From: Protofrankia sp. CiT1
Lineage (GTDB): Bacteria > Actinomycetota > Actinomycetes > Frankiales > Frankiaceae
NCBI RefSeq assembly: GCF_917627385.1
Contig: NZ_CAKJTL010000046.1
Coordinates: 1 to 54,760, forward strand
DNA length: 54,760 nt
Direction: 5' to 3'
This document shows, one piece after another, positions 3,945-18,237 of this stretch. Position numbers and translations under genes: made by a program. The notes beneath the pieces were generated by a model. The model saw only the letters and a list, made by a program, of their open reading frames with translations, was not told where the DNA came from and made no database searches. Every line of letters begins with the position of its first letter. The stretch's first letter is position 1.

Positions 3945-4188
3945 CTAACCGGCAAGATCTTCCGGGGCTTCGATTCCTGCGATGAGGGCCTGTCCCGGGG
4001 TGTAGCCGCTGCCGGCGTACCGCCACCGGCCGACCCGTGCGGTCTGCTCGTCATCCAGGTCCGGAAGCCTTCGGAGCACGCGGGCGGTCTCGGCGCGTTC
4101 GGCGGCCCGTGCGCGGCGAAGCGCTCCCATGGTTGTGGAGTAGCGCCGGCTCCGGATACGTGCCGGACTGCGTGGCCATACCGATCAC
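3945..4188 (-). pseudogene. C-terminal fragment of a RepSA-like plasmid/AICE replication initiator
   Basis: On the minus strand a frame open from a TGA near 4190 reads ARIRSRRYSTTMGALRRAR, then WRYAGSGYTPGQAL, and stops at 3945. SRRYSTT followed by a basic helix and W-R-(Y/F)-A-G-x-G-(Y/H) is how replication initiators of Streptomyces plasmids and actinomycete integrative elements end. The N-terminal few hundred residues are missing. On the plus strand at 4233-4331 another scrap (IQWLIDARKAGLIAWPDR...) ends at a TAG inside the adjacent palindromic repeat. I read the 3800-4330 stretch as debris of an integrated element. The match is from memory of the family pattern, so confidence is moderate. 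Confidence 0.45.
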
Positions 4189-4317
4189 GCGGCTCCGGCC
4201 GGCCGCGATCTGATCGACTCCAGCCGCTGAGGGTCAATACAGTGGCTCATCGACGCACGCAAGGCGGGTCTGATCGCCTGGCCAGACCGGATCCCCAACG
4301 GCCAGGCGACCATCTGG

Positions 4318-4476: not shown

Positions 4477-5901
4477 TTAGGGGCGCCAGGCGGTGAGCAG
4501 GTCGTCCGGGCCGAGGGCGAGGATACCGGCCGTCGCCGTGCTGGCACGGGTCACCGCGAGCAGGGGGGTTGCGTCGTCGGCGCCGGGAAGCCGCGACCGG
4601 TGGTGGGCGAGCCGAGCGAGGTCGTGCACGTCAAAGGCGCGGTTGTCCTGCCATTTGATCGATCCGACCACGGTGATCTTTTTGGCGATCGGTTCCCGAT
4701 CCGCGCCGACGATGTCGATTTCCGGGTCGTTGGTACGGGTCCAGTAGCCGCCGATGACGTTCGTGTCGTCCGGTAGTACCCCCGCGGGAAGCCGGTGCAG
4801 CGCATCCCTGATCACCGGCTCGATCGCCCGCCCTCGCCAGGCGGCCCAGGAGGCTTCGATCCGGGCGAGAACCAGGTCGCCGCGGCCCCGCTCGATTTCA
4901 TGGAGGTACGGGCCGAGGAATGTCAGCCAGAACCGAAGATAGGGGTCGGCGATCAGATACCGGGTTTCGCGGGAGGGCCGGACTGACAGCGGAACCATGG
5001 CGGTGACCAGGCGCTTAGCGGCCAACAGCTGCAACGCGCGGCTCAGGGAGCCCGGCGCGATCCCGCCGGCGGCCCGTCCGATAAGCGAGAAGGCCCGTTC
5101 TCCGGATCCGATGGCACCAAGGACCCCGCGGGCCTGCGCTTCGACGGGAAACTCGGCCGCCAGCGCACGTTCGGCGCTGACCAGCAGCGCGGAGGTGGGA
5201 TCGTCGACCGCTTCCCGCAGATAATCGTGCACTGAGGCGCCGCCGGGCCATTCGTCCAGGATTAGCGGCAGCCCGCCGGTCACCAGGTAGGCGTCGAAGG
5301 CATCGGCAGAGTTCAGATCCACCATCGTGGACACGTCGGCCGGGTTCAGTGGCGGGATCACCATCTCGCCAGCGCGTTGGTGAAACGGCCGGCCGTAGGA
5401 ATTGAGCGCCTCCATCATCGCCAGATCCGAGCCGATGCACAGCAGGAGGACCGGCCGCCGGGACAGCTCGCGATCGAACAGCTTCTGCAGCGTCCCCTCG
5501 AAACCGGGGTCGTTGGCGATGAGGTAGGGCATCTCGTCTATGATCACCACGCTGGGTTGGTCCGCGGGCAGCGCACCGGCCAGCAGCCGCAGCGCCGCAT
5601 CCCAGGATCCGGGTTTCTGTTCATGGAACAGGCCGGCGCCTGGAAGATCCGAGCTCGCACCCGCCTCGGTGAACAGGCGGAGATCCATCGCCATGTCCAG
5701 CTGCGCCGACGCGGTGAAGAACAGGTATGGCACGCCCGCGCGGTCGACGAATTCCTCGGCCAATCGTGACTTGCCGACGCGGCGACGTCCGCGCATCAGG
5801 ATAGCCCGACCGGGACGACCCGCCCGGCCGCCGGCCCTTACCCGCCGCAACAGCCGGTCAAGCGTCGCCAGCTCGCGTTCCCGTCCGATGAACTCGGCCA
5901 T
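4477..5901 (-). CDS. AAA ATPase of the ATPase_2/DUF234 type
   Basis: About 474 residues from the ATG at 5901, which has GAGG 9 bases upstream; a GTG at 5922 would add seven residues but falls inside a palindrome. The N-terminus FIGRERELATLDRLL is typical of ATPase_2 proteins. Walker A is GRRRVGKS and Walker B is VVIIDEMPYL. Then come a sensor-like LLLCIGSDLAMME, a winged-helix region, and a C-terminal part ending in a degenerate restriction-like fold (DPEIDIVGADREPIAKKITVVGSIKW) like the DUF234 nuclease-like domain. Such proteins are common in archaea and actinobacteria and have no settled function; many sit in defence or mobile regions. The stop codon abuts palindromic element copy A. Confidence 0.78.
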   Translation of the reverse strand: MAEFIGRERELATLDRLLRRVRAGGRAGRPGRAILMRGRRRVGKSRLAEEFVDRAGVPYLFFTASAQLDMAMDLRLFTEAGASSDLPGAGLFHEQKPGSWDAALRLLAGALPADQPSVVIIDEMPYLIANDPGFEGTLQKLFDRELSRRPVLLLCIGSDLAMMEALNSYGRPFHQRAGEMVIPPLNPADVSTMVDLNSADAFDAYLVTGGLPLILDEWPGGASVHDYLREAVDDPTSALLVSAERALAAEFPVEAQARGVLGAIGSGERAFSLIGRAAGGIAPGSLSRALQLLAAKRLVTAMVPLSVRPSRETRYLIADPYLRFWLTFLGPYLHEIERGRGDLVLARIEASWAAWRGRAIEPVIRDALHRLPAGVLPDDTNVIGGYWTRTNDPEIDIVGADREPIAKKITVVGSIKWQDNRAFDVHDLARLAHHRSRLPGADDATPLLAVTRASTATAGILALGPDDLLTAWRP

Positions 5902-5920
5902 GCTGACCTGCCTCGATCGC

Positions 5921-5964
5921 ACTCATCCAGGATACTCTCACTGATGAGAGTATCCTGGATGAGT
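5921..5964. promoter_or_regulatory. Perfect 20-bp inverted repeat with 4-base loop
   Basis: Arms at 5921-5940 and 5945-5964 (ACTCATCCAGGATACTCTCA and its exact complement) flank CTGA. It is AT-richer than its surroundings and lies just upstream of the ATPase start and 43 bp past the stop of the ABC1 kinase gene. No T-run follows on either strand, so an operator for a dimeric regulator (perhaps autoregulation of the ATPase) is more likely than an intrinsic terminator. Confidence 0.7.
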
Positions 5965-6006
5965 AGGAACGACCGGCGATAGGGGGCGGCGTGATCCGGT
6001 GGATGC

Positions 6007-7659
6007 TCAGGCGCTTTCGGCGGTCGTCCCGGACGGGTTTTGAGCGTGCGTGTCGTCGTCACCGGCTACGAGATCACCAGCTGTGAGATCACCGGATGCC
6101 GCGGTGGCGGGGGCGTCCCGCTCGCCGGTGCCACGCTGGCTGGGCGGCCCGGGGAGGCGCGGCTGCTTCGGCTGCTTCGGCTGCTTCGGCTGCTTCGGTA
6201 CGCGGTGCTCTCCCGCCGATGCTTCCGGCGTCGGCGCGACCGGTGCCGCTGGCGGCCGTGGACGCTCCTGATCCGTTTCGACGGCGAGCGCCGGCAGCGC
6301 GCGTCCGGGCCGGTTCGCCCAGCGCGCATGCTCGGCCGCGGCGGACCCTGGCGGGGCGAAGCCGGGCTGCCATCGTTGCATCTCGGCGCGAAAGGTCCCC
6401 GCGCTGCCGAGCTGGCAGAGGATGCCGACCGCTCCCAGCGTCACTCGGTGGATCAGCAGGTAGGACGGGGGCAGGTTGAGCTGGCGGCCGAGCTGGGCCG
6501 CGGGGGAGCGGGGATCACCCAGCCGGACGGCTTCCCCGCGCAGCCAGTCACGGCAGAAACGGAACTCCTCCGTGGCGATGGGCTCAAGGATGGGCACGAG
6601 GTAGTCCAGGAGGTCCGCGCCGCTGACCTTCGCCGTCGGCAGGACGAATCCCTCCGCCCGCAGACCCGCCATAACCGCGTCCGCATCGCCGTGGAGCGCC
6701 AGCCGGCTGAGCCTGCCGATGGGTTCGGGCAGCCCGTCAGGAAGCCGATTGACCGCGCCGAAGTCGAGGACTCCCAGCCGGCCGTCCGCCAGCAGCCGGA
6801 AGTTGCCCGGATGCGGATCCGCGTGCAGGAGGCCGACCCGGCCGGGACAGGAGTACAGGAACCGCACGAGCAGCAGCCCAGCCCGGTCGCGTTCGGCGGT
6901 GGTGCCATCGCTTATGATTTTTGATAGTGGTCTGCCGTCGATCCATTCGGATATCAGGACGTGCTGCGTGCCCATGATGGCCCTGGGCACGCAGATGTCG
7001 GGATCGCCGTGGAACGCTTCGGCGAAAGCCGCCTGCCAGGCAGCCTCCAGGCGATAGTCGAGTTCCTCGATGATCCGTTCCTTCAGTTCGGCGACCAGGG
7101 GTTTGATGTCCAGCCCAGGGGCCAGCGCGCTGAACAACCGCGCCGCGCGCGCGAGCTGGGTGAGGTCCGCGAGCAACGCGGGCCCGGCTCCCGGGTACTG
7201 AATTTTGACGGCGACCTCGAGCCCGTCCGCCCACACCGCCCGGTGAACCTGGCCGATGCTCGCCGCGGCCGCTGGCGTGTCGTCGAAGTCACGGAACATC
7301 GTCCGCCAGTCCGGGCCCAGGTCGCCCGCCAGCACCCGATGAACCGACGCCGTAGGCAGGGGCGGCGCTGCCTCCTGGAGTTTTGTCAGGGCCGCCCGGT
7401 AGGGCCGGGCCATCTCTTCGGGCAGCGCGGCTTCGAAGACCGACAGCGCCTGGCCAAGCTTCATCGCGCCGCCCTTGAGCTCACCGAGAACCCGGAAGAT
7501 CTGTTCGGCGGTGCGCTGCTGAAGTTCCGTGGCGACGATCTCGGCGGGACGTCCACCGAGCCGCTTACCCATACCAACCGTGGCCCGTCCGGCGATGCCT
7601 AGCGGAAGACCCGCCAGTTTGGCGGTTCTGACGATCGCGCGTTTTGGGATTTCGGACAC
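6007..7659 (-). CDS. ABC1/ADCK (AarF/UbiB) atypical kinase-like protein
   Basis: About 550 residues from the GTG at 7659 (VSEIPKRAIVRTAKLAG), preceded by a GGGG-containing RBS; an ATG at 7716 is possible but adds an unconserved tail. Family motifs run in order: KLGQ (the KxGQ signature), AAASIGQVHRA, AVKIQYPG, EELDY, HADPHPGNF and LDFGA (DFG-like). ABC1 proteins act in quinone and lipid metabolism in other bacteria; the actinobacterial role is unclear. The C-terminal 90 residues are low complexity, with four KQP units encoded by a 9-bp tandem repeat at 6160-6198. The gene shares its direction with the ThiF-like gene 84 bp upstream, an arrangement I recall from other actinobacteria. Confidence 0.88.
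   Translation of the reverse strand: MSEIPKRAIVRTAKLAGLPLGIAGRATVGMGKRLGGRPAEIVATELQQRTAEQIFRVLGELKGGAMKLGQALSVFEAALPEEMARPYRAALTKLQEAAPPLPTASVHRVLAGDLGPDWRTMFRDFDDTPAAAASIGQVHRAVWADGLEVAVKIQYPGAGPALLADLTQLARAARLFSALAPGLDIKPLVAELKERIIEELDYRLEAAWQAAFAEAFHGDPDICVPRAIMGTQHVLISEWIDGRPLSKIISDGTTAERDRAGLLLVRFLYSCPGRVGLLHADPHPGNFRLLADGRLGVLDFGAVNRLPDGLPEPIGRLSRLALHGDADAVMAGLRAEGFVLPTAKVSGADLLDYLVPILEPIATEEFRFCRDWLRGEAVRLGDPRSPAAQLGRQLNLPPSYLLIHRVTLGAVGILCQLGSAGTFRAEMQRWQPGFAPPGSAAAEHARWANRPGRALPALAVETDQERPRPPAAPVAPTPEASAGEHRVPKQPKQPKQPKQPRLPGPPSQRGTGERDAPATAASGDLTAGDLVAGDDDTHAQNPSGTTAESA
6160..6198. repeat. 9-bp tandem repeat coding for KQP units
   Basis: About four copies of CGGCTGCTT on the plus strand, translated as K-Q-P repeats in the C-terminal tail of the ABC1 kinase. 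The unit length keeps frame, so copy number can vary without breaking the protein. Confidence 0.85.
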
Positions 7660-18121: not shown

Positions 18122-18198
18122 CGCGGGGTGGAGCAGCTCGGTAGCTCGCTGGGCTCATAACCCAGAGGTCACAGGTTCAAATCCTGTCCCCGCTACCA
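18122..18198 (+). tRNA. Initiator tRNA-fMet (CAT)
   Basis: 77 bases including an encoded CCA end. The anticodon loop is CTCATAA on a stem with three G-C pairs (GGG/CCC), and position 1 is a C that does not pair with the T at position 72; both are initiator marks. The T-arm reads GGTTCAAATCC. A strong promoter precedes it and a T-tailed hairpin follows. Broken toxin-antitoxin genes start two bases after the terminator, so this tRNA may have served as an integration boundary. Confidence 0.97.
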
Positions 18199-18204
18199 GC
18201 GAAA

Positions 18205-18237
18205 GGCCCTCGGAGAAGCCCTCTCCGAGGGCCTTTT
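18205..18237 (+). terminator. Rho-independent terminator of tRNA-fMet
   Basis: Perfect 11-bp stem (GGCCCTCGGAG with 18223-18233), seven-base loop, followed by TTTT. Confidence 0.95.

Follow-up and report, generated by a model that had tools for sequence, protein, structure and literature searches.

The closest described systems to the locus studied here are two candidate phage-defence families in PADLOC: PDC-S27, represented in this work by DUF234 proteins, and PDC-S01, to which we assign the DUF4143 proteins by inference from their ATPase plus PD-(D/E)XK make-up. PDC-S27 proteins are described as fusions of an ATPase with a PD-(D/E)XK-type domain; 3,503 archaeal and 4,562 bacterial instances are given for this family, and 9,986 and 29,494 for PDC-S01, and most such phage-defence candidates await validation (PMC12988326). 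The part of that account available to us makes no mention of an upstream array (PMC12988326). In the literature searched, we found neither a ligand nor a mechanism for the ATPases of the two families, nor a self-matched array of family-specific pitch for archaeal and bacterial ORC-like ATPase–nucleases.

By fold, the nearest relatives are the solved archaeal ATPases SSO1545 (2fna) and PABY2304 (2qen), for which no operator appears in the literature searched. Archaeal Cdc6/Orc1 initiators have ORB repeats beside their own genes. They resemble the system described here in their AAA+ and winged-helix fold, which has been solved on origin DNA, and in having multi-copy boxes near their own gene, whereas the present ATPase has a C-terminal nuclease-like domain and 15-bp boxes at its start codon. 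Self-regulated multi-box operators are a known kind: toxin–antitoxin and restriction–modification (R-M) controller systems have dyadic ones over the gene start of their own binder. The likeness is a putative dyadic multi-box operator at the start of the putative binder's gene, but here there is a single gene, with no separate antitoxin or controller, and binder and effector would be one protein.

IniR of mycobacteria is an SSO1545-like ATPase and a promoter-binding transcription regulator, which, in the part of its description available, differs in its C-terminal SdiA-like DNA-binding domain and in activating another operon (PMC5760070).

The window, a 54,760-nucleotide stretch of DNA from Protofrankia sp. 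CiT1, contains an ATPase gene of the PDC-S27 type with a long palindrome at its start.

The ATPase gene and its protein

The gene and the domains of its product are as follows.

4477-5901, minus strand: gene for an AAA+, winged-helix and DUF234 ATPase of 474 amino acids; start codon ATG 5899-5901
5317-5901, minus strand: AAA+ ATPase domain, residues 1-195; Walker A RGRRRVGKS, Walker B VVIIDE; fold nearest to 2qen and 2fna
4942-5151, minus strand: predicted winged-helix DNA-binding domain, residues 251-320, from an AlphaFold2 model and the regression below
5017-5055, minus strand: predicted recognition helix, residues 283-295, from the AlphaFold2 model
4480-4884, minus strand: PD-(D/E)XK-like DUF234 domain with D396 and S414-I-K416, from Pfam, alignment and model

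The first in-frame start of the open reading frame is GTG 5922, which lies inside the palindrome, as the initial annotation had pointed out. Most of 80 homologues have their start at the counterpart of ATG 5901 (protein start M-x-x-F-I/V-G-R), which makes 5901 the better start, in agreement with that annotation. At the C-terminus, PF03008 (DUF234) matched with an E-value of 5e-11 and 43.3 bits against a curated cut-off of 22.5, and the Pfam families AAA_16 and AAA_14 fell just under their cut-offs. Walker A and Walker B motifs, aligned over 25 proteins, identify the protein as AAA+. The PADLOC models for PDC-S27 matched at E-values of 2.9e-22 and 1.1e-13, in a library that lists no cut-off.

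In the AlphaFold2 model (mean pLDDT 89), an AAA+ core is followed by a winged helix and, at the C-terminus, by an alpha/beta domain. The winged helix, a region of the protein already suspected from sequence alone, is predicted to consist of helices 256-265, 271-277 and 283-295, with wing strands 299-302 and 314-317. The nearest solved fold is 2qen (Z 19.4, 3.5 Å, 300 residues aligned), together with 2fna/SSO1545 (Z 18.2, 3.8 Å, 295 residues aligned); the alignment to both covers residues 1-328 and ends ahead of the DUF234 domain. ORC subunits and Cdc6/Orc1 proteins come next, with Z up to 16.6 and complexes with DNA among them, and 2qby and 2v1u were among the top Foldseek matches.

In a 66-row alignment, D396, S414 and K416 are invariant, which places a serine at the ExK acid position, so that the window clade departs from the canonical D...(E/D)xK catalytic signature and from the ExK glutamate of the PADLOC systems. 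Haloarchaeal, rhizobial and distant paralogues keep E or D there (ECK, DCK, EAK, EVK). Nuclease activity is therefore uncertain in the window clade. D427 is invariant in the actinobacterial S-x-K clade, and a relocated catalytic acid, for example D427, is possible.

The palindrome is a 15-bp-periodic box array

Upstream of the ATPase gene, positions 5921-5940 and 5945-5964 are exact reverse complements separated by CTGA, and together form a 44-bp perfect dyad of 20 + 4 + 20 bp, about 20-63 bp before ATG 5901 of the minus-strand gene. Its parts are listed below.

5921-5964, no strand assigned: 44-bp perfect dyad, a 15-bp-periodic putative operator array (reverse complement, lag 15)
5931-5939, no strand assigned: inner box 1, GATACTCTC on the plus strand; box and spacer pattern also found in homologues
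5946-5954, no strand assigned: inner box 2, GAGAGTATC on the plus strand; centre 15 bp from that of box 1, with a 6-bp spacer between
5922-5930, no strand assigned: outer half-box CTC and 6-bp spacer ATCCAG, 15 bp outside the inner box; likewise in L079 and L005
5955-5963, no strand assigned: outer 6-bp spacer CTGGAT and half-box GAG; module homology to congeners stops at 5963

With mismatches tolerated, the arms grow to 28 nt at 89% identity (5913-5972), the longest inverted repeat in the window. The dyad has a GC content of 45%, as against 68% for the window. The initial annotation had called such a dyad rare in this GC-rich DNA, and the expected count from base composition (GC 0.68, pairing probability 0.28) is ~6e-6 per window and 5e-4 per 5.02 Mb. 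In agreement with the T-tract reported missing there, a scan of 5850-6150 detected no T-tract, no terminator-like site and no sigma-70-like site.

Read on the coding strand, the region forms the lattice CTC-ATCCAG-GATACTCTC-ATCAGT-GAGAGTATC-CTGGAT-GAG, with p=0.010 in the lag-15 test at this locus. The dyad is not an isolated palindrome but an array of boxes with a 15-bp period, made up of two inner boxes and outer half-boxes; it spans four lattice positions, and it is by chance that their outer letters complete a perfect palindrome.

The period is conserved in close homologues

We compared 108 homologue upstream regions, 78 from named loci and 30 from further genomes. L126 and L134 were dropped from the 80 named loci, as their match begins upstream of the gene. 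DUF234 loci of about 39% identity or more were considered for the further set, and those left out were L009, L010 and L011 (N runs or partial), L070, L072 and L074 (partial), L073 and L075 (lower identity, with short or doubtful upstream DNA) and L059 (79% identical, no array seen, probably the same record as L081). The 108 count one locus twice (L004 and L079) and include the identical copies L088 and L089.

The best repeat lag was 15 bp in 89 of the 108 regions, and lag 15 reached p<=0.01 in 87. When the test was rerun, it did so in 86 of 108, against 20 of 293 upstream regions of other genes in the same loci. Across 76 distinct upstream regions, the mean excess identity was +0.147 at lag 15 and +0.062 at lag 30, compared with 0.01-0.03 in controls. 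A common unit, read by eye, is a 9-bp dyadic box (for example, GATASTATC) followed by a 6-bp spacer (for example, ATYRAT), and dyad axes occur once every 7.5 bp.

The initial annotation had proposed a search for the dyad upstream of homologous ATPases. The same dyad stands at the equivalent position in the nearest intact orthologues, L004/L079 (81% identical) and L005 (79%), and nearly all homologues have a related array there. At lag 15, 21 of the 108 regions miss p<=0.01, and no array is visible upstream of L081 (79% identical) or L093. In some loci the test fails because the boxes form one asymmetric dyad, as in the Nonomuraea loci L142, L155 and L156, which have GTTAGTCTC-N6-GAGACTAAC or close variants.

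One site in the genome, one module with the gene

At up to 3 mismatches, the array core occurs at one site in the 5.02-Mb genome, directly before the ATPase start, as expected for a self-regulator; a regulon was rejected on the same result. The dyad is accordingly neither missing from homologous loci nor widespread apart from the gene, and its initial reading as an operator gains support, as an interpretation, from the homologue arrays and the single genomic site. Among 35 genomes of the family, the core at up to 3 mismatches was found at 20 places and a reversed control pattern at 3. Six of the 20 lie before DUF234 ATPases, including both places with 0 mismatches.

In blastn comparisons of the window with two congener loci, 4479-5963 aligned and nothing outside it did; the shared DNA begins at the stop codon and ends at the margin of the palindrome. 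The ABC1-kinase gene, which ends at 6007 upstream of the ATPase gene on the same strand, and a ThiF neighbour are kept in 4 of 4 congeners, which have no adjacent ATPase or array. These homology limits and neighbours indicate that gene and array behave as a unit, which moves or disappears without its neighbours. An ATPase match at 1e-60 was present in 21 of 396 genomes drawn from the phylum. Two candidate vehicles were rejected: a transposon end or repeat family, given that the 121-bp region has a single match in the genome, where it also matches its own reverse complement, and a tRNA-linked insertion, there being no tRNA near the ATPase gene.

Several other features of the window were recorded. 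Positions 4159-4230 (72 bp) are 89% identical to a piece that congener G003 has in two copies near its ABC1 gene; the stretch occurs at a single place in its own genome, with no tRNA there. A RelA_SpoT-domain reading frame (638-1705) lies beside an unassigned one at 62-634, possibly as a synthetase module. A creatininase-like reading frame at 2068-2457 matches just positions 3-125 of a 238-position family and looks truncated. Within 18122-18236, a tRNA-Met is directly followed by a perfect 15-bp hairpin (18202-18236), probably its terminator.

The array word follows the winged helix

Operator similarity climbs with protein identity (rho 0.37, 0 of 500 permutations), whereas control DNA 120-190 bp upstream gave a rho of 0.04. 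In a regression on four domains, the winged helix had a beta of 0.31, reached by 0 of 500 permutations, whereas the ATPase, lid and nuclease domains had betas of 0.04, 0.03 and 0.04 (179, 188 and 185 of 500 permutations, respectively); the permutations ignore phylogeny, and phylogenetic non-independence is only partly controlled in the analysis as a whole. A sliding window peaked around residues 229-300 and 313-336, with parts of the ATPase domain (about 49-108) nearly equal, and column-wise mutual information separated the domains weakly.

At the start of the predicted recognition helix, N282 accompanies the word GAAAGT in 13 of 13 rows (4 of 94 with other residues at 282), and P285 accompanies at least two words of the GTTAGT type in 8 of 9 (4 of 98 with other residues at 285), links that alone are not significant because they represent 2-3 independent events on supported branches. 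Streptomyces loci have GATAGTATC, CCAAATTTGG or GAAAGT words, split by protein clade, and three paralogues in the window's own genome (L003, L014 and L020) have three different words. The array word follows the protein and not the host, and it tracks the winged-helix domain and not the ATPase or nuclease domains.

Arrays beyond the close family

Plasmid-borne genes were sampled for spread (10 of 141 DUF234 records and 11 of 362 DUF4143 records). Lag 15 was best upstream of 8 of the 10 DUF234 genes, from Streptomyces and, with other words, from Rhodothermus, four haloarchaea, Sinorhizobium and Rhizobium; the two remaining genes are haloarchaeal as well, and before these the word TCATTA repeats at 15 bp by eye. 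A 15-bp array before the ATPase gene is a family-wide feature that crosses domains, from bacteria to archaea.

Remote DUF234 paralogues (n=18, about 29-34% identical) had a best lag of 16 in 8 cases and 15 in 4. The 16-bp-array paralogues L020, L044, L052, L045 and L046 have in common a three-residue gap in the winged-helix turn; the gap is absent from the 15-bp clades, and L066 and L068 have lag 16 without it.

For the sister DUF4143 ATPases of the same host family, lag 23 was found in 21 of 25 loci (25 of 30 were used, those omitted being mostly partial genes). Tandem 23-bp arrays of about 3-10 units lie directly upstream of the DUF4143 genes in L174-L203, for example CCTCCAGATCCGTAGCTC... 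and GGCAGATCGACCG... Among the plasmid DUF4143 genes, lag 22 was found in 3 of 11, the three nearest to the query (its nearest proteobacterial relatives); most of the remaining eight had no clear array by the lag test, and L222 has a 45-bp dyad in place of an array. In the last 100 bases before the start, the distant plasmid DUF4143 genes L219, L220, L221 and L224 have start-codon inverted repeats, CCTTGYAA...TTGCAAGG or variants, and no array. On contig C137 of G004, a DUF234 and a DUF4143 ATPase gene (L022 and L180) lie close together and divergent, each with its own array type.

Discussion

We consider it probable that the ATPase binds the array via its winged helix and acts as repressor of the gene that encodes it, the array being its operator. 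This reading builds on the computed array, period, conservation, single site and winged-helix link, from which we infer direct binding, an oligomer and repression. The DNA-linked character of the closest folds, SSO1545 and PABY2304 followed by ORC and Cdc6/Orc1, speaks for it as well. The ATPase would read the boxes through its winged helix. Because boxes and spacers are both dyad-symmetric at the 15-bp period, half-sites face each other every 7.5 bp, and a row of subunits in alternating orientation may assemble along the DNA with a pitch set by protein geometry. Occupancy of an array placed about 20-63 bp ahead of the start codon should block transcription; the overlap of array and promoter is deduced from that distance, as no promoter was recognised in 5850-6150. 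The outcome would be negative feedback on a potentially harmful ATPase–nuclease, with gene and array travelling together. Winged helices of STAND and ORC-like proteins do not always bind specific DNA. A phage-defence role of the family is a database candidacy, through PDC-S27.

Might the array instead be the operator of another host regulator? It is common for an operator to be bound by the product of a regulator gene located elsewhere, and some loci have an HTH gene downstream. However, the word tracks the ATPase's own winged helix, differs among paralogues within one genome and takes at least three forms by protein clade in Streptomyces, and the neighbours vary from locus to locus, all of which leaves a different binder quite improbable. 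We also regard it as unlikely that the array is a site of action, serving either assembly, in the manner of iterons or ORBs, or the nuclease domain as a self-marked target, with any effect on expression secondary. ORC and Cdc6/Orc1 being the closest folds after SSO1545, DNA complexes included, points in that direction, as do DUF4143 arrays of up to about 6-10 lag-23 units, beyond what a simple operator needs, and the joining of gene and array in one block. Set against this are the fixed place of the array directly before the start codon, the mostly chromosomal and solitary occurrence of the examined DUF234 genes, and a clade that lacks the canonical ExK glutamate.

An RNA hairpin, whether a 5'-UTR structure or one that terminates or attenuates transcription of the upstream ABC1-kinase gene, would suit the very stable transcript fold (-51.7 kcal/mol, z -7.9) and the same-strand gene ending at 6007. 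Yet there is no T-tract, homologues keep the direct 15-bp period, the L135 region folds just slightly better than shuffled copies of it (z -1.75; 11 of 200 do as well), and the ABC1 gene stands without ATPase or array in all four congeners, so that we hold this explanation to be very unlikely; the terminator or attenuator was rejected as the main reading on the missing terminator-like site, the fold comparison and the homologue arrays. A chance palindrome, at about 6e-6 expected occurrences and with orthologues conserving the dyad at the same place, has a negligible probability.

Beyond self-repression by the ATPase, a wider proposal is put forward tentatively and is doubtful as a whole: cross-domain ORC-like ATPase–nucleases may be one-gene modules that carry their own DNA lattice, with a pitch that is fixed within each family (15, 16, 22 or 23 bp) and letters set by the winged helix. 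An ATPase polymer on this lattice might both silence the gene and hold the enzyme inactive, and the enzyme might be released or aimed when the lattice complex is lost or when an invader brings in a second lattice copy. The array would then be a sensor of self and non-self or of copy number, not a plain operator.

The ATPases of PDC-S27 and PDC-S01 are among the commonest candidate defence genes. If the putative operator is what it appears to be, each would have a cognate DNA ligand, and the sequence next to each gene would supply the exact DNA for a binding assay or a structure. The fixed pitch predicts an oligomer, and the link between word and winged helix offers a natural specificity code.
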